Positions 28,120 through 39,680 of a DNA stretch of 64,000 nt are shown here, one piece after another. Every line of letters begins with the position of its first letter. Position 1 is the stretch's first letter. The stretch spans positions 2,976,001 through 3,040,000 of the forward strand of contig NC_003552.1 in NCBI RefSeq assembly GCF_000007345.1, written 5' to 3'. Below the pieces are notes generated by a model. That model searched no databases. It saw nothing but the letters and a program-made list of their open reading frames with translations, and was not told where the DNA came from. Source of the stretch: Methanosarcina acetivorans C2A. Its GTDB lineage: Archaea > Halobacteriota > Methanosarcinia > Methanosarcinales > Methanosarcinaceae. The position numbers were made by a program, and so were the translations under genes.

Positions 28120-29523
28120 ATGGCAACTGAATACGCTTTGAGGATGGGTGATGGCAAAAGGATCTACCTCACAAAAGAAAAAATCCTCAGTGAGATAGAA
28201 GCCGGCTCGTCAAATGCCGCTGATCTGGGAGATATCCCTGATCTCAGTACGGATGAAATGAAAAAGCTCGCTGAAATCCTTATGATGCCCGGAAAGGCCG
28301 TGAGTGTCGAACAGGGGATGGAAGTCCCGGTTACTCATGATATAGGCACGATCCGGCTTGATGGGGACCAGGGTAACAGCGGCGTTGGGATCCCCTCCAG
28401 CCGTCTGGTAGGCTGCATGACGCATGAGAGGGCATTTGGCGCCGACACAATGGAACTCGGACACATCGACTACAGTTTCAAGCCGGTCAAACCCGTTGTC
28501 TCTAACGAGTGCCAGGCAATGGAAGTCTGCCAGCAGAACATGATCATTCCCCTTTTCTACGGCGCAATGCCCAACATGGGGCTTTACTACACTCCAGACG
28601 GACCCTTCGAGAACCCCGGTGATCTTATGAAGATGTTCAAGATCGATAAGGCAAGGGAGTCCATGGAACACGCAGCAGACCATCTGACCAGGGACACGGT
28701 CTGGGTTATGCAGAAACTCTTTGCCTCGGGCGCGGACGGTGTCAACTTTGATACAACTGCTGCCGCCGGAGATGCTGATATGTACGGCACCCTCCGGGCC
28801 GTGGAAGTTCTCAGGGCTCAATTTCCGGAGATGTACATTGAGGTGGGCATGGCAGGCGAGATGGTGCTCGGGATGCACGGGGAACTGGAGTACGATGAAG
28901 TTCGGCTTGCCGGGCTCTGGCCGCATGAACAGGCTCCTCTGATTGCAAAAGCCGGAGCAAACGTCTTCGGGCCTGTGGTCAACACCAACACCAGCAAGAC
29001 CTCAGCCTGGAACCTGGCAAGGGCTGTTACCTTCATAAAGGAGGCAGTAAAAGCGTCCCCGATTCCCTGTCATGTGAACATGGGTATGGGAGTGGGCGGA
29101 ATTCCCATGCTTGAAACTCCTCCTGTAGATGCGGTTACTAGGGCAAGTAAGGCAATGGTCGAAGTTGCCGGTGTCGATGGCATATAGATCGGGGTCGGCG
29201 ACCCTCTGGGTATGCCGATTTCCCACATAATGGCTTCAGGTATGACCGGGATAAGAGCTGCAGGCGACCTGGTCGCAAGGATGGAGTTTTCAAAGAACAT
29301 GCGCATAGGAGAGGCAAAAGAGTACGTGGCAAAGAAACTTAACGTTGACACCATGGACCTTGCAGACGAGCACGTTATGCGCGAACTCAGGGAAGAGCTT
29401 GACATTGGTGTCATCACTTCCGTACCCGGAGCTGCAAAGGGCATTGCTGCGAAGATGAACATTGAGAAACTGCTCGGGATCAAGATCAATTCCTGTGAAA
29501 CGTTCAGGGCACAGCTTGCCTGA
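28120..29523 (+). CDS. mtbB: Dimethylamine methyltransferase with in-frame amber (pyrrolysine) codon
   Basis: 467 aa when the TAG at 29185-29187 (codon 356) is read as pyrrolysine; the next stop is the TGA at 29521. The sequence before and after the TAG (VAGVDGI and [13 protein letters not shown]) is uninterrupted family sequence, and codon 356 is the known pyrrolysine site of MtbB. The enzyme moves one methyl group from dimethylamine to the Co(I) corrinoid of MtbC; the pyrrolysine ring activates the amine. GGAGG lies 8 bases before ATG. Genes for pyrrolysine synthesis are not in the window. The 355-residue ORF ending at the TAG is not the true end. Confidence 0.97.
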
Positions 29524-32758: not shown

Positions 32759-35057
32759 ATGATCGTAATAATTTTGGAGGTAAAACTATATAGTTATTCT
32801 GGAACAGCCTTACATGCTCAAGAAAATTTTAAAAGTTTCGATCATTAAAAAGGAGAAAACACAGTTGAATTTCGAATTGCTAGGACACTTTCCTGTAGTT
32901 TCATTGTGCCTGAACAGAAAAAAACGCTTTTAAGTGCAAACCAGTTTAAATTTCGTCTGATAATGCCAGATTATTTCAAATTAGTGCTTATTTTCAAGTT
33001 ATCAGTAAGATAAATGTTCCACTGAAAAATAGCTTTTAACTTCCTGCCTCAAAAACAGAGCAAATAACTGAGATCGTAAAAATAACAATGTGGAAATATT
33101 GAGATGTAAGATAAATTTTTTTCCATAGATTTGATAGATGGATAAGGTCAACCGAATGCGATTCAACTTAAAAAAAATATGAGATATGTCGCAATGTAGA
33201 AAATATATAGTTTCATTAATTTTCCGAAACCTTTCCAAAGTTTTAATCTTTTTTAGGCTCATATGTCGTTTTCTGTTTTCCACATCTCGTACACACAAAA
33301 TACTTTTCCCTTACATTTGAAGCATAGATGTTCAAACCTCCGCTTCTTTTCCACTTATGAAGCCCTATAAGGCACAAAATGCTTCTCCGTGAAGGTTTTC
33401 CGGAAACCCTGGATGGAGCCCTGTAAGCCAGGTAATCACCCTCATATAATGAATTCTTCTAACCTGAAATTTCAAGCTGAATATACTGGACAAGCTGAAT
33501 ATACTGGAATAACTTTATTATCAATAATATTATTTAATTGTTATTCTAACCCGAGTTCCGCTAGTTTAGAGTTATTCAGAGAGCAGAGAAACAATATTCA
33601 TCATGCAAGTTGCGAAGAACCCAGAAAAGCTCCTTTCTTTTCATTCTACCTTTTTATACATTCACAAGACCCTGCCTAAAGTTTTAAAAGTCAGGAACAG
33701 TATTCTCAAGATAGTAGAAGAATCCAGATTAAACGAGCCCTGTAGAGAATGTTTAGGAAGGTATCGGGCATCCGACCGCTCCAATAAGTTTTGAAATATG
33801 AAATTCATTAAAAAGATTCTGAACTCTATTTAACCTTTATTTGCTATTTAGTTTATTTCTAAGAATTTTTATCTCCATTTATCTTGTTTAAATACTCTAA
33901 TGAGAAATTTAAGTAGAATTATTGCGGAAAATTTTTGATTAAATTATTCATTCTGTTAAATTATATATATATGGAGTAGGAATGATATGGTAGTATCCAT
34001 ACATATAAAAGGATATGATGAGACGCTCTTCACCTCAGTGTTACAATCCATATCCACCCCTGGTTATAGGGAAGTCGTTAAGGTGATGGGTGATGGAAAG
34101 AACAGAAAAAACGGATCTCAGGCAGAGTAGACGTGGTAGATAAAAAGTGGTAGAAAAAGTGCGTGGCAGACAATCGAAAATGCCTCAAAAGTCTGCAAGC
34201 CTGCTCCTTCCGGTGGAAAGGTAAAAGCAAAAAGGATGAAACAAGCAGAAACGTTTTTTATACGCCTCAAAACTGTACATACAAGGCCTCAGCTATGTAC
34301 AACAACACCTTAAAAACTGCTGCTTGCTCCTCCTGAAACCTGTATTTCAACCTTCCTTCTCCTCTTTCCATTTTTCAATCTTGTTAAAAGTTTAGAACCT
34401 GAAAACTTTTGGAATTCTTTTGTATGAGTAGTCCAGACCACATGTAAAACAAGAAAAATTTACATAATGATTCTTCGTTTTTGCTTTACTTCCTTTCCCA
34501 GATTAAGAATAGTTGAGTTCCCATAAAAGTTATCCGGAAAATTATATATAACAATAAAAGCCAATCATATTCTGTATTTCTGTGACGCAGAAATACATGA
34601 AGAAGTTCTTCGCTACCATTACGATCATCACTCCACCCTGGCGTTCAATGAGTGGGTCGTTTCATAGATGGGCGAAGGACCGAAAGAAAATTGGGCAATA
34701 GATGATAAGAAAGTGGTAGAGTAAGGCCAAAAAGCCTTATATTAGATGCGGTGGAAAGGAAAAAAATGTTTGATGAAGTCGTATCCATCCGGACTGATGC
34801 CTCATCATGTATCGCATGAAACGCCTCAACCTTGTGCGATACTTGGATACAAACATCTGCCTGATAGCTGTTTTTAGCCTTTCCACCATTTCTGCCGACC
34901 TGAAACTGTTTTTCAGCTTAACAAAAAGGGGATATCACCTTTTTTACTCCATGCATAAGCACTGTACGGATCAATTTTCAATACTTTCCCATAAAATTTA
35001 ATGCTTCGCTATATCTCTCACTTATGCGGACCCCCAACATATATTTGCACTTTAGAT
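32759..35057. other. Gene-poor AT-rich region with gene remnants and hairpins
   Basis: 2.3 kb. No complete gene is seen. It holds an 18-bp direct repeat CAAGCTGAATATACTGGA (about 33475-33510), a short ORF resembling the start of a glycosyltransferase (33987), and two perfect inverted repeats: GTATTTCTG-tgacg-CAGAAATAC (34574-34596) and GTATCGCA...TGCGATAC (34809-34842). A frame at about 34585-34665 reads DAEIHEEVLRYHYDHHST, which looks like a protein fragment. GTGGTAGA and GGTGGAAAGG motifs recur at 34132-34220 and 34710-34760. I take this to be decayed genes. Confidence 0.45.
33987..34130 (+). pseudogene. Possible remnant of a family 2 glycosyltransferase (N-terminal part)
   Basis: A 47-codon ORF starts MVVSIHIKGYDETLFTSVLQ and continues to PGYREVVKVMGDG. 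This fits the beginning of GT2 enzymes, in which a V-S-I-x-I strand is followed by a helix, a Y-x-E-V-x-V strand and an acidic residue plus glycine. GGAG and AGGA lie just upstream, and TTATATATATA lies before that, so a promoter is still there. The frame then stops. Assignment is tentative. Confidence 0.35.
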
Positions 35058-36486: not shown

Positions 36487-36545
36487 TGAATTAACATCCC
36501 ATAAGAGAGATATATTTCATCTGAGATAAGTATTGGACTCAGAGT

Positions 36546-36623
36546 TTAGCAGCAACGCCAGTAGAATCTGGGTACACAGCACCTAATTCTTATGCAGATA
36601 AAGCGGAAGAAAAAGAAACACAT
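36546..36623 (-). CDS. Microgene, 25-aa Cys/Arg/Phe-rich peptide (unit I)
   Basis: ATG 36623 to TAA 36546. The peptide begins MCFFFFRFICIRIR and ends VPRFYWRCC, with 5 Cys and 5 Arg among 25 residues and no acidic residue. A purine-rich GGGGGGAATTATAATG places six G at the spacing seen for the Shine-Dalgarno sites of the neighbouring microgenes. The MC start and the aromatic-cysteine content echo the unit II peptide. It lies about 300 bases downstream of conserved promoter module I. No homologue is known to me; coding status is inferred. Confidence 0.45.
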   Translation of the reverse strand: MCFFFFRFICIRIRCCVPRFYWRCC

Positions 36624-36706
36624 TATAATTCCCCCCATCTTTTATTTGATTTTTGTTTATCTTTCCATTGTGCGTAGCCTTCTGCAGTCAGAGTTATACA
36701 CTTATC

Positions 36707-36751
36707 TTACAACAAGAACTCACAGAGACTACGGCTAAGCTGAAAGTACAT
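36707..36751 (-). CDS. Possible microgene, 14-aa peptide (unit I)
   Basis: ATG 36751 to TAA 36707, MYFQLSRSLCEFLL. It follows AGGAGGTATAATATATG with GGAGG eight bases before the ATG, exactly the spacing of the unit II and III microgenes, and lies directly after promoter module I. With 14 codons it could be a decayed copy, a leader peptide or a real product. Confidence 0.35.
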   Translation of the reverse strand: MYFQLSRSLCEFLL

Positions 36752-36765
36752 ATATTATACCTCCT

Positions 36766-36979
36766 AAACCCCTTATCAACCCCCCAAATAAGTTTTATAC
36801 TCAAGGCAATTATTTTTAAAACTATTCTTAATCCTGATTTTAATTTGGAGATGAGTAGATTTTATTTTAATTGCCAGAGAGTATATAGCAAATTATAATA
36901 ATAATACTAATAACAATCAATTATATAAAACGACTAGAATAATTTGTTCTAATCATTAAATAGTCTTCGAAAATCCAGA
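36766..36979 (-). promoter_or_regulatory. Conserved promoter/leader module I
   Basis: Read on the minus strand: GATTTTCGAAGACTATTTAATG, an operator-like TAGAA-N7-TTCTA (36935-36951), a TATA box TTTTATATAA (36921-36930), then ATATACTCTCTGGCAATT, a spacer, AATTGCCTTGAGTATAA (an inverted GGCAATT/AATTGCC pair about 75 bases apart) and GGGGGGTTGATAAGG. The same order recurs in modules II and III. Confidence 0.75.
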
Positions 36980-37385
36980 CAAATATCTGATTAAGGTTCA
37001 GGATTTGCAGTAAGGAATTATTTTTATTAAATAATGTCAAGAATGTATTAGGGCACAAGCACCAGCCATTACATTATAAAAAAGACAATCAATAAGTTCC
37101 TTTTAAGCCTGGTAGAGATACTCCTCTACAGTGACCATTTAAAATGTAGCCATTATGACAGTTTCAAAACACTTCCAGCTGATTATTACTCAAATATAAA
37201 CAAAAACCTTACAGAAACCGTGTTTAAGCTGAAAATGTTAAAAAACTCAAAATGTATGGAACAGGGCAAAAAAGTAAGTGAGAAGCTCAAATGAAGTGAT
37301 CCGCCTCGTACTGGTATTCCCTATAATCCCTGAAAAAAGAAATGCACAACTAAATTTAGAAAAACAAACATACATAGTCATCAAT
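36980..37385. other. Spacer between units I and II
   Basis: AT-rich. A short inverted repeat CTGGTAGAGA-tactc-CTCTACAG lies near 37110-37133. No gene seen on either strand; this would be the upstream flank of module I and the end of unit II. Confidence 0.4.
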
Positions 37386-37419
37386 TCAAAAAAAGATAAT
37401 TTCTTAGAAATTATCTTTT
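37386..37419 (-). terminator. Terminator hairpin of unit II
   Basis: AAAAGATAATTT-cttag-AAATTATCTTTT is a perfect 12-bp stem (37391-37419). Read on the minus strand it is followed by more T (TTTTTTTGAATTG). It lies 69 bases after the second microgene of unit II. A similar flank, TCATCAATTCAA...CTTGAAAAGA, recurs after unit III near 38613-38667. Confidence 0.75.
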
Positions 37420-37487
37420 ATACTTGAAAAGACGACTATGGATTATATTTTTTTAAATTTGCTTATTATCGGGCTTAGCGGTTGTTA

Positions 37488-37601
37488 TTAACAACCGCCC
37501 CAGCCGCCACAACCGCCGCCCCAGCCGCAGCCGCAGCCACGACCCCAGAAGCGATGCCTGAAGCCCCAGCCCCAGTTGTTAAATCCAAATCCACAACACA
37601 T
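37488..37601 (-). CDS. Microgene, 37-aa Cys/Gly/Trp-rich peptide, copy 2
   Basis: ATG 37601 to TAA 37488. The peptide begins MCCGFGFNNWGWGFRHRFWG and ends GWGGGCGGWGGC; 16 Gly, 6 Cys and 6 Trp in 37 residues. GGAGG sits eight bases before the ATG (GGAGGTAAGTACAATG). The opposite strand shows an Ala/Pro-rich ORF that is only the antisense. The coding part and ribosome binding site are identical to copy 1 at 37679-37792. Cys and Trp codons are common here although both residues are rare by chance. Possible roles, all inferred: metal binding, or an aggregating or membrane-active peptide. No maturation enzyme is next to it. Confidence 0.65.
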   Translation of the reverse strand: MCCGFGFNNWGWGFRHRFWGRGCGCGWGGGCGGWGGC

Positions 37602-37651
37602 TGTACTTACCTCCGTCTAATTACCTTATTTATCTTATTTACCTATTCATT

Positions 37652-37818
37652 GCTTATTATCGGGCTCAATGGTTGTTATTAACAACCGCCCCAGCCGCCA
37701 CAACCGCCGCCCCAGCCGCAGCCGCAGCCACGACCCCAGAAGCGATGCCTGAAGCCCCAGCCCCAGTTGTTAAATCCAAATCCACAACACATTGTACTTA
37801 CCTCCGTCTGTTTACCTT
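37652..37818 (-). repeat. Direct repeat of about 165 bp (other copy 37462-37628)
   Basis: The repeat holds the 37-codon microgene, its ribosome binding site (AGACGGAGGTAAG) and about 25 bases after the stop codon. The coding part is identical between copies; a few differences occur only after the stop (GGGCTTAGCGGTTG versus GGGCTCAATGGTTG). Confidence 0.9.
37679..37792 (-). CDS. Microgene, 37-aa Cys/Gly/Trp-rich peptide, copy 1
   Basis: ATG 37792 to TAA 37679. It is identical in coding sequence and ribosome binding site to the copy 191 bases further on, and comes first after promoter module II. Identity across the gene with differences only outside suggests recent duplication or gene conversion that keeps the peptides equal. 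Six cysteines (residues 2, 3, 23, 25, 31, 37) could form disulfides or bind metal. There is no signal peptide. Confidence 0.65.
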   Translation of the reverse strand: MCCGFGFNNWGWGFRHRFWGRGCGCGWGGGCGGWGGC

Positions 37819-37903
37819 ATTTTCACACTCATTATTGCACATTAAAGGAAAATGAATTCATTAAAATTAAGTGCCTATTTTCCTAATGGTGTGTACCTTC
37901 CTG

Positions 37904-38100
37904 ATTAAACCCTTATCAACCCCCAATAAGTGTTGTACTCACGGCAATTTTTGAAACCATTCTTCGTACTGATTTTATTTGGAGAGGAGCAGATTTGATT
38001 TTAATTGCCAGAGAGTATATACCTAAATAATAATAATAAATTATATAAAAAGGATAGAATAAATTTTTCTAAACATTAAATAGTCTTCGAAAATCCGGGT
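37904..38100 (-). promoter_or_regulatory. Conserved promoter/leader module II
   Basis: Same order as module I on the minus strand: GATTTTCGAAGACTATTTAATG, operator TAGAA-N7-TTCTA (38055-38071), TATA box TTTTATATAA (38041-38050), TATATACTCTCTGGCAATT, AATTGCCGTGAGT, GGGGGTTGATAAGGG. It lies about 110-310 bases before the first 37-codon gene. Confidence 0.75.
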
Positions 38101-38726
38101 AAACAGCCGACTGAGATTGAAGGTTTTCTTCTATTCTTAATTTTGAAGGTAATAATTCTTAAAACTTCTCAATAACACCGGAGATTCAGTCTTTAATTTA
38201 CTATTCAAGCAAGAAAAATTTTTTTTTTTGGATAAATAAGCTCTATTCTTAAATTAAATCAATATAAAGTTTCTTAACGGAACTGATTTTGCTGAAAAAA
38301 AATAGTAACATTTTCCAATATTAAACATCAAAACTTCAGTCTTTTCTTCAGAAAATTCATTTCTTTAGAAGTGGAACATGGGATTGATGGATTTTCGATT
38401 TATTCCATTTCATTCCCAACTTCAATTCTTCATTCCCGCTTAGATTTATTCCAGTGCCTTCAAATCTCGAGTAAGTAAAGAAAAGGAGAAAAAAGAACAA
38501 ATAAAGAAGCATGAAAAATACGGTTTCAACCGTAAAAATTACCCGGATCATATGTCACAAACCATGACAGAAAGATATGTAGTTACCAGCCCATAAAAAA
38601 TAAGAAATCGTAGCCATCAATTCAAGGTAAAAAGAAACCATGATTTTATCCTTATATCTTGAAAAGATGGCAAATGAAACAATTGCTTTTCAGTTAAGTG
38701 ACCAATTAATCCGTATCCAGTGTTAT
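38101..38726. other. Spacer between units II and III
   Basis: AT-rich, with poly-T/A runs (38220-38230). The minus-strand ORF at 38357-38551 is hydrophobic but lacks a ribosome binding site. Near 38613-38667 is the flank shared with the unit II terminator region, which would end unit III. Confidence 0.4.
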
Positions 38727-38810
38727 TTAATCCCAGCCAGCCCAGATGTAGAGTTGGGTGCTCTCATAATAGGCGACGATTTTGTTGTAATATAAACTAA
38801 AGAATCCCAT
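38727..38810 (-). CDS. Microgene, 27-aa aromatic peptide, copy 2 (unit III)
   Basis: ATG 38810 to TAA 38727. The peptide begins MGFFSLYYNKIVAYYEST and ends LYIWAGWD; 10 of 27 residues are aromatic. GGAGG lies eight bases before the ATG (GGAGGAATATACAATG). Compared with copy 1 it has one silent change (Asp GAT/GAC) and one conservative change (Val/Ile), the pattern expected for selected protein. No known family. Confidence 0.65.
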   Translation of the reverse strand: MGFFSLYYNKIVAYYESTQLYIWAGWD

Positions 38811-38904
38811 TGTATATTCCTCCAGATTTCAATTCTTGTTCAATAGTTAGAAAACAATTTTTTTTCTTAGTTCAAACAGCTATTATTATCCATTCCAGTG
38901 TTAT

Positions 38905-38988
38905 TTAGTCCCAGCCAGCCCAGATGTAGAGTTGGGTGCTCTCATAATAGGCGATGATTTTGTTGTAATATAAACTAAAGAATCCCAT
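38905..38988 (-). CDS. Microgene, 27-aa aromatic peptide, copy 1 (unit III)
   Basis: ATG 38988 to TAA 38905, with Ile at position 12 where copy 2 has Val. The same GGAGG with 8-base spacing is present. It is first after promoter module III. The duplicated block spans about 110 bp and includes the ribosome binding site and about 10 bases after the stop. The peptide is amphipathic with Tyr/Trp clusters, so membrane or surface contact is possible, but this is a guess. Confidence 0.65.
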   Translation of the reverse strand: MGFFSLYYNKIIAYYESTQLYIWAGWD

Positions 38989-39121
38989 TGTATATTCCTC
39001 CAAATTTTAATGTGTTCTTCGTGATATGTTCTTCTTGTCTTGTATATTCATGTACATTAGTTGAAAAGAATGGAGTTTTGTGAACTTAGAATAATCTCCC
39101 AATGGCTTGTAATTCTCCGAT

Positions 39122-39322
39122 CAAACTCTTTATCAACCCCCCAACACCAAGATTATACTCATGGCAATTATTTTTAGAAATTAGTCTGGACACTTATCTT
39201 CATTTGTAAGCCCACAGACTAAATTTTAATTGCTTCAGAGTATAAATAAAAATATATACGTAACACATATAAAATCAACAGAATTAACAATACTTACCAT
39301 TAAATAGTGCTTGAAAATCTGG
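39122..39322 (-). promoter_or_regulatory. Conserved promoter/leader module III
   Basis: A more diverged copy: GATTTTCAAGCACTATTTAATGG, TATA box ATTTTATATG (39266-39275), TTTATACTCTGAAGCAATT, AATTGCCATGAGTATAA, GGGGGGTTGATAAAG. The TAGAA-N7-TTCTA operator is degenerate here. It precedes the unit III microgenes by about 130-330 bases. Confidence 0.7.
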
Positions 39323-39680
39323 AAGAATAAAAGGGGAATAAAGGATCCAACTTATAAATTTAAGTTACAGGTTATAAATTTGAGAGTGTACAGGTGAAAT
39401 AAAGCTTTTACCCCTCTTTTCTGCAAATAAGGGAAAAGTAAAACAGTTCATGAAAAATAAAGGGTAAAAAGCATAATAAAATATGATATAAAGCTTTGAA
39501 ACCTCTTAATATAACTGAAAAAACGAGTAACCTCTTCTATTTATTAACTATATAACTTAGGTTTTTTTCTTTTCAAGTGTGGTATTTTCCCGGAGAAAAA
39601 TTTTTGGACAATTATATTAAGATAATTATTTTAATCTGTAAGTTCCCCACATCCTTACATCCGCAGGCACCATTAACCCG
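39323..39680. other. Intergenic region upstream of unit III and downstream of mptE
   Basis: AT-rich, with a short direct repeat TTATAAATTTAAGTTACAGG/TTATAAATTTGAG near 39352-39385. No gene seen. Confidence 0.4.

Follow-up and report, generated by a model that had tools for sequence, protein, structure and literature searches.

A recurrent promoter-leader module precedes clusters of dissimilar putative microprotein genes in Methanosarcina

Results

Three homologous modules and their downstream microORFs

The window analysed here is a stretch of 64,000 nucleotides from Methanosarcina acetivorans C2A (contig NC_003552.1, positions 2,976,001 to 3,040,000), and coordinates given below without further specification refer to it. 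Three modules of ~200 bp lie on its minus strand at 36766-36979 (M1), 37904-38100 (M2) and 39122-39322 (M3). A sequence check upheld these places, which an earlier note on this DNA had assigned to the modules, as well as the order of elements that it had claimed: each module has, in this order, a conserved upstream element, a TATA box, an arm of the form TATACTC..GGCAATT, the segment AATTGCC..GAGTATA and a GGGGG-TTGATAA box (the G-box). The strings said to be common to all three are near-exact in M1 and M2, but those of M3 have diverged (TTTTCAAGCACTATTTAATG, TATACTCTGAAGCAATT), and the identity of M3 over the repeat blocks is 65-73%. With M1 as the query against the whole 5,751,492-bp genome, M2 was matched at E=2.5e-50 and M3 at E=6e-13, with no match beyond these two at E≤0.001. 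Judged by these sequence comparisons, the three modules are homologous and do not resemble one another by chance.

Three further features had gone unremarked in the earlier note. The segment AATTGCC..GAGTATA lies 50-60 nt past TATACTC..GGCAATT and is complementary to it, so that the two are the arms of a single RNA stem (P1); M1 has ~14 additional bases between its TATA box and this stem; and additional, diverged copies of the module occur in this genome at a distance of 1.8 Mb.

Read along the minus strand, M3 begins with the upstream promoter element (39279-39319), placed by the promoter alignment, and the TATA box TTTTATAT (39267-39274), whose TATAT is invariant across 47 aligned promoters. 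The P1 5' arm (39215-39244) pairs in the predicted fold with 39154-39188 (duplex z=-2.7), and its start is predicted to lie at or near the transcription start, which was deduced from the position of the TATA box. The P1 3' arm CAGACTAATTTCTAAAAATAATTGCCATGAGTATA (39154-39188) is supported by the predicted fold, by the alignment of leader subtype S1 (see below) and by duplex energy, and the G-box GGGGGGTTGATAAAGAGTTTGAT (39120-39142) is conserved 3' of P1. M2 has the same layout, with the upstream element at 38053-38095 and the TATA box TTTTATATAA at 38041-38050 (both from the promoter alignment), the P1 arms at 38003-38019 (5') and 37936-37949 (3'), each backed by the S1 alignment and duplex energy, and the G-box GGGGGTTGATAAGGGTTT, again conserved 3' of P1, at 37907-37924. 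The corresponding features of M1 are the upstream element (36934-36975) and TATA box TTTTATATAA (36921-36930), likewise placed by the promoter alignment, the P1 5' arm (36869-36885) and 3' arm (36796-36811), both from the predicted fold and the S1 alignment, and the G-box GGGGGGTTGATAAGGGGTTT (36766-36785), conserved 3' of P1 here as well. Elsewhere in the window, Rfam places a PYLIS_2 pyrrolysine insertion element at 29185-29284 (E=3e-26).

Each module is followed on the same strand by small open reading frames (microORFs). Downstream of M3 lie MGFFSLYYNKIIAYYESTQLYIWAGWD (38905-38988), for which homologs were found, and a second copy, MGFFSLYYNKIVAYYESTQLYIWAGWD (38727-38810), each preceded by the Shine-Dalgarno (SD) sequence GGAGG. 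M2 is followed by MCCGFGFNNWGWGFRHRFWGRGCGCGWGGGCGGWGGC (37679-37792; SD GGAGG) and by a second copy of this 37-aa Gly/Cys/Trp-rich microORF (37488-37601), and M1 by MCFFFFRFICIRIRCCVPRFYWRCC (36546-36623), with GGGGGG before it. Two of the three units, those of M2 and M3, thus hold tandem duplicates, at 97% DNA identity in both cases. The peptides encoded behind the three modules, MCFFFFRFICIRIRCCVPRFYWRCC (M1), MCCGFGFNNWGWGF... (M2) and MGFFSLYYNKII/VAYYESTQLYIWAGWD (M3), are mutually unrelated in sequence, which bears out the claim that the modules are kept while the downstream peptides differ. A possible extra 14-codon uORF, MYFQLSRSLCEFLL, with GGAGG upstream, is present in M1 at 36706-36750; it is not conserved in the nearest relative module (L032).

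Distribution in the genus and a second locus

The earlier note had made its proposal depend on the presence of modules upstream of microgenes in relatives, and a search found them there. The M1 DNA query gave BLAST matches in 21 of 31 Methanosarcina genomes, mostly as clusters of 2-6. Profile searches of the fetched neighbourhoods yielded ~75 modules initially and 113 promoter matches once more loci had been added, for ~110 copies; because every locus was collected by homology, either to the module or to its peptides, these counts describe the family and are not a survey. The named related records that contain the module are from Methanosarcina, save one 3.4-kb contig (L145) filed under Candidatus Gastranaerophilales, which is probably mis-binned Methanosarcina DNA. 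As to a virus origin, viral contigs gave no exact match to the module pattern.

The main clusters lie mostly downstream of ileS-mptE; a Zn-ribbon ORF and an AAA_14/DUF4143 ATPase often come next. Several arrays (L037, L042, L046, L051, L054) contain decayed, frameshifted mptE fragments, which indicates that the arrays grow by segmental duplication. In the window, a small Zn-ribbon-like ORF, MCLIGLHKWKRSGGLNIYASNVREKYFVCTRCGKQKTTYEPKKD (33243-33377), recurs near the array, strongly conserved, in most of the genomes examined.

When the 27-aa YY peptide served as the sole query against the genus, a region at 4.85 Mb of this genome (G000:C1:4851300-4853600; L071) emerged, as did its equivalents in three relatives (L072, L073, L074). 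Two diverged modules lie in this second locus, together with 3-4 tandem 25-aa YYEAT peptides; the tandem peptides that the diverged modules head are MFFSLVYSQVIKYYEATCFKLVYCI and variants, MIFGLDLGILFAIVFEFDLGLLFGW and MFFYLDYTKITFYIEVVKLRIIYLSGYGALDR. Since the peptide query carried no module sequence, the second locus is an independent success of the link between module and microgene. A MacB-like ABC transporter adjoins it in divergent orientation. In this genome the leader model R1 matched no copies but the three in the window; it missed the second locus, whose arms differ, so a promoter model, R2, was needed.

The promoter layer

Promoters from both loci and all leader subtypes can be aligned (n=47), with the consensus TCCAGATTTTCAAnGACTATTtAATnnTAAGnAnnnnTTATTCTA followed by TTTATATAA and several invariant positions; the distance from TTC to TATA is 11 nt in 33 of the 47. 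Some copies show a suggestive dyad, TAAG.A...TTCTTA, that is not significant over the AT-rich background. In this genome the sequence-only promoter model gave seven significant matches: the three window modules, two at the second locus, and two upstream of alpha/beta-hydrolase genes (gene family by Pfam). The hydrolase matches (E 1.8e-11 and 2.8e-6) precede two different genes, at 1.19 Mb and 3.26 Mb (L125:4876-5776; L111:401-1564), and have no P1 nearby. Because the promoter also heads genes that lack the leader, promoter and leader are separable. The promoter marks out a small putative regulon: several operons of one genome have a common DNA element at a fixed promoter position, which is the general mark of a transcription factor regulon.

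The promoter model scored at E≤0.01 in 30 of the 31 Methanosarcina genomes. Among 186 genomes of the order, strong matches beyond the genus came only from one sister genus, in two of its genomes (G110, G113). In these two and in one Methanosarcina genome (G022) the promoter precedes a ~500-aa protein, MKKYVQVILLGVLFTVLTGTGLAQNETE..., with a signal-like N-terminus and no Pfam match; its short leader closes a P1-like stem (GGCTAATTTAG/CTAAATTAGCT) directly before the SD (L126, L127, L139), and the arrangement is duplicated in L126. Order-wide matches at E 0.002-0.01, in eleven genomes, are weak and were taken as chance.

The leader RNA layer

Aligning 65 leaders of all subtypes together with MAFFT gave no consensus fold; the leaders were instead aligned separately by subtype, namely S1 (which holds the window copies), S2 and S3. 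In S2, 94% of the P1 cells are paired, with compensatory CG/UA changes, and the whole structure is 88% paired, against 33-52% when the partner strand is slid. For S1 the value is 93%, against 32-54% slid. S3 leaders are 87% paired, with covariation no greater than in shuffles. The G-box is followed by a third helix (P3), for which support is good in S2 and which can also be seen in S3 and at the second locus. The TTG that follows the G-box might have opened a conserved upstream ORF, but this reading was dropped, because indels in P3 disrupt the frame in the alignments.

In a swap test, 5' arms paired with the downstream region of their own module outdid pairings with the regions of dissimilar modules by 4.4-5.7 kcal/mol, and did so in 90-91% of 98 modules. 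Arm sequences differ widely between subfamilies, which makes this cognate pairing hard to explain by conservation at the DNA level. P1 thus has the general hallmark of a conserved structured RNA, a helix kept through compensatory change, as seen in S1, in S2 and in the swap test. Leaders of some relatives also fold well below shuffles (z -4.6, -4.0, -4.2), while others are weaker (z -2.3, -1.6, -1.7). The window leaders are unremarkable in single-sequence folding against shuffles (z -0.6, +0.3, -1.5), and the minimum-energy fold of M2 lacks P1; given these weak z values, the case for RNA structure in the window rests on homology and not on energy. The exposed G-rich box in S1 and S3 could presumably pair with the 3' end of 16S rRNA (the anti-SD). 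The G-box is weaker in S2 leaders, so a common ribosome-loading role may not cover all leaders.

These data bear on whether the leader matters at all. It could be that only the promoter is functional, the resemblance among leaders being passive, carried along as the units duplicate, and the stem without function. The arrays do duplicate, as the ORF copies with 97% identity and the decayed mptE fragments attest; the window leaders fold no better than shuffles; and the hydrolase genes have the promoter without the leader. We nonetheless regard this explanation as unlikely, since the arms change in correlation between subfamilies and loci while pairing and position persist, and since the leader is kept although the peptides diverge completely.

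A leader of this length, with an internal hairpin (P2) and a conserved box, might instead be a riboswitch or thermometer that senses a ligand or temperature, in which a rearrangement of P1 and P2 exposes or hides the ribosome site; long structured 5' UTRs of methanogen relatives act in the cold response (PMC5378194). However, the sequence inside P1 shows poor conservation and varies in length from ~50 to ~200 nt, no invariant aptamer-like core other than the G-box is apparent, and no conserved alternative pairing that would mask the SD came to light. Nor is there a match in Rfam: over 36500-39500 nothing rose above chance at E≤1 (two miRNA matches lie far below threshold) and nothing reached the gathering threshold. 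We therefore consider a switch quite improbable.

Coding potential of the microORFs

An SD-preceded microORF of 18-85 codons lies downstream of 87 of 103 modules (84%; modules with sufficient flanking DNA, excluding promoters of genes other than microgenes), compared with 7% expected from dinucleotide-shuffled sequence and 1% on the opposite strand. In the Gly-rich ORFs the start and a C-terminal CC(I/V)TA(V/I)R motif are in one frame in 12 of 12 cases, across 10 different distances. The pN/pS values in four peptide families, 0.43-0.57, weakly back coding, and codon-position bias over a small sample of seven pairs is not significant (p=0.21). The three window peptides had no match in Pfam at E≤1, and eight representative microproteins had none in NCBIfam at E≤10. 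At locus L039 (genome G008) the ORFs are MCGCYSFFNLKWCFFKIKFFKCFQNFCGCR and MGFFSLYYSKVTVIYSKTTLSIFGWFF. The SD enrichment and the in-frame constraint suggest that the microORFs are likely to be coding. That they go untranslated, the units forming a structured small RNA family in which leader and downstream tract are the functional parts, is very improbable: sRNA-like transcripts often host sORFs in M. mazei (PMC11456600), and the codon-position signal is weak, but the excess of SD-microORFs (84% against 7%), the frame kept over variable ORF lengths and the peptide-level conservation between loci all point the other way.

Discussion

The promoter is conserved in every copy, P1 pairs, and the module is associated with microORFs at two loci. 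The earlier note had put the three window units under the control of a single regulator or a single RNA structure. This proposal is partly supported: both features exist and can be separated from each other, and either may control expression. We think it probable that each module serves a Methanosarcina microprotein regulon as a composite control cassette, which would combine one transcription factor with a leader that stabilises the mRNA, loads ribosomes, or does both. The upstream element TCCAGATTTTCAAnGACTATTtAATnnTAAGnAnnnnTTATTCTA, at a fixed distance from the TTTATATAA box, would be bound by a single transcription factor that switches all copies together. In the leader (~130-250 nt) the P1 stem would close the predicted 5' end of the message, followed by an exposed box of the GGGGG-TTGATAA type, in many copies by the further hairpin P3, and then by SD-preceded ORFs of about 20-80 codons, often duplicated in tandem. 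Most likely the 5' stem would shield these short mRNAs against decay from the 5' end, and/or the leader may give ribosomes a loading site, the exposed G-rich box being the part that would load them.

It is instructive to compare this arrangement with known systems. Archaeal transcription factor regulons have an upstream element beside BRE/TATA, at a fixed distance, in many promoters. The conserved element at a fixed distance upstream of TATA fits this pattern, but it matches no operator that the analysis could identify. Bacteria have multicopy small-peptide loci, among them type I toxin-antitoxin families, leaderless bacteriocins and phenol-soluble modulins. The Methanosarcina units are alike in their predicted tandem hydrophobic or aromatic peptides of 20-50 aa that lack signal sequences; the likeness to type I toxin-antitoxin and leaderless bacteriocin loci consists of the tandem peptides and the MacB-like transporter at the second locus. 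In contrast to the bacterial loci, the peptides here are diverse and not uniformly cationic.

Within the genus, a close parallel is provided by the spRNAs and sORFs of M. mazei (Prasse 2015; Tufail 2024, PMC11456600), short transcripts that encode largely unannotated proteins of ≤70 aa; half of the new small proteins are ≤30 aa (PMC11456600). The putative window microproteins would likewise be tiny and come from short transcripts, but the parts of PMC11456600 consulted describe neither a common promoter-leader module nor arrays of diverse microproteins under one. Long folded 5' UTRs are known from dRNA-seq of Methanolobus psychrophilus, where they were proposed to affect mRNA stability and translation (PMC5378194), and that paper also cites structured 5' UTRs in the mtaA and mtaC leaders of M. 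mazei zm-15. These resemble the present leaders in being long, folded and archaeal. They are, however, leaders of individual metabolic genes, whereas here one architecture, with compensatory change, is reused before unrelated microproteins at several loci. A search of the open-access literature, with supplements and key papers outside its range, returned no description of the module.

Assembly, metal binding or extracellular action could be the role of these peptides, which show Gly/Cys/Trp or alternating aromatic patterns. More tentatively, we consider a wider reading that is less likely than not: the genus may possess a fast-diversifying microprotein system built on one cassette, which would pair a dedicated regulator with structured leaders of a new, 5'-terminal class. 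Such leaders would give tiny mRNAs a long life or efficient ribosome loading. New peptide genes (Gly/Cys/Trp-rich, YY-type, alternating-hydrophobic) would be slotted into the cassette and then amplified, possibly as a secreted or self-assembling arsenal.

Orphan microproteins are a major blind spot in archaeal annotation, and the module joins a set of them into one probable regulon with a searchable signature. The DNA element offers bait for the regulator, and compensatory mutation, in a methanogen amenable to genetics, can test the role of the leader directly. Unrelated peptides have one control cassette in common, which makes the cassette a first handle on when and why these peptides are made. 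The occurrence of one standard cassette before many small clusters of very different tiny-protein genes suggests that Methanosarcina has a coordinated, largely undescribed microprotein system.
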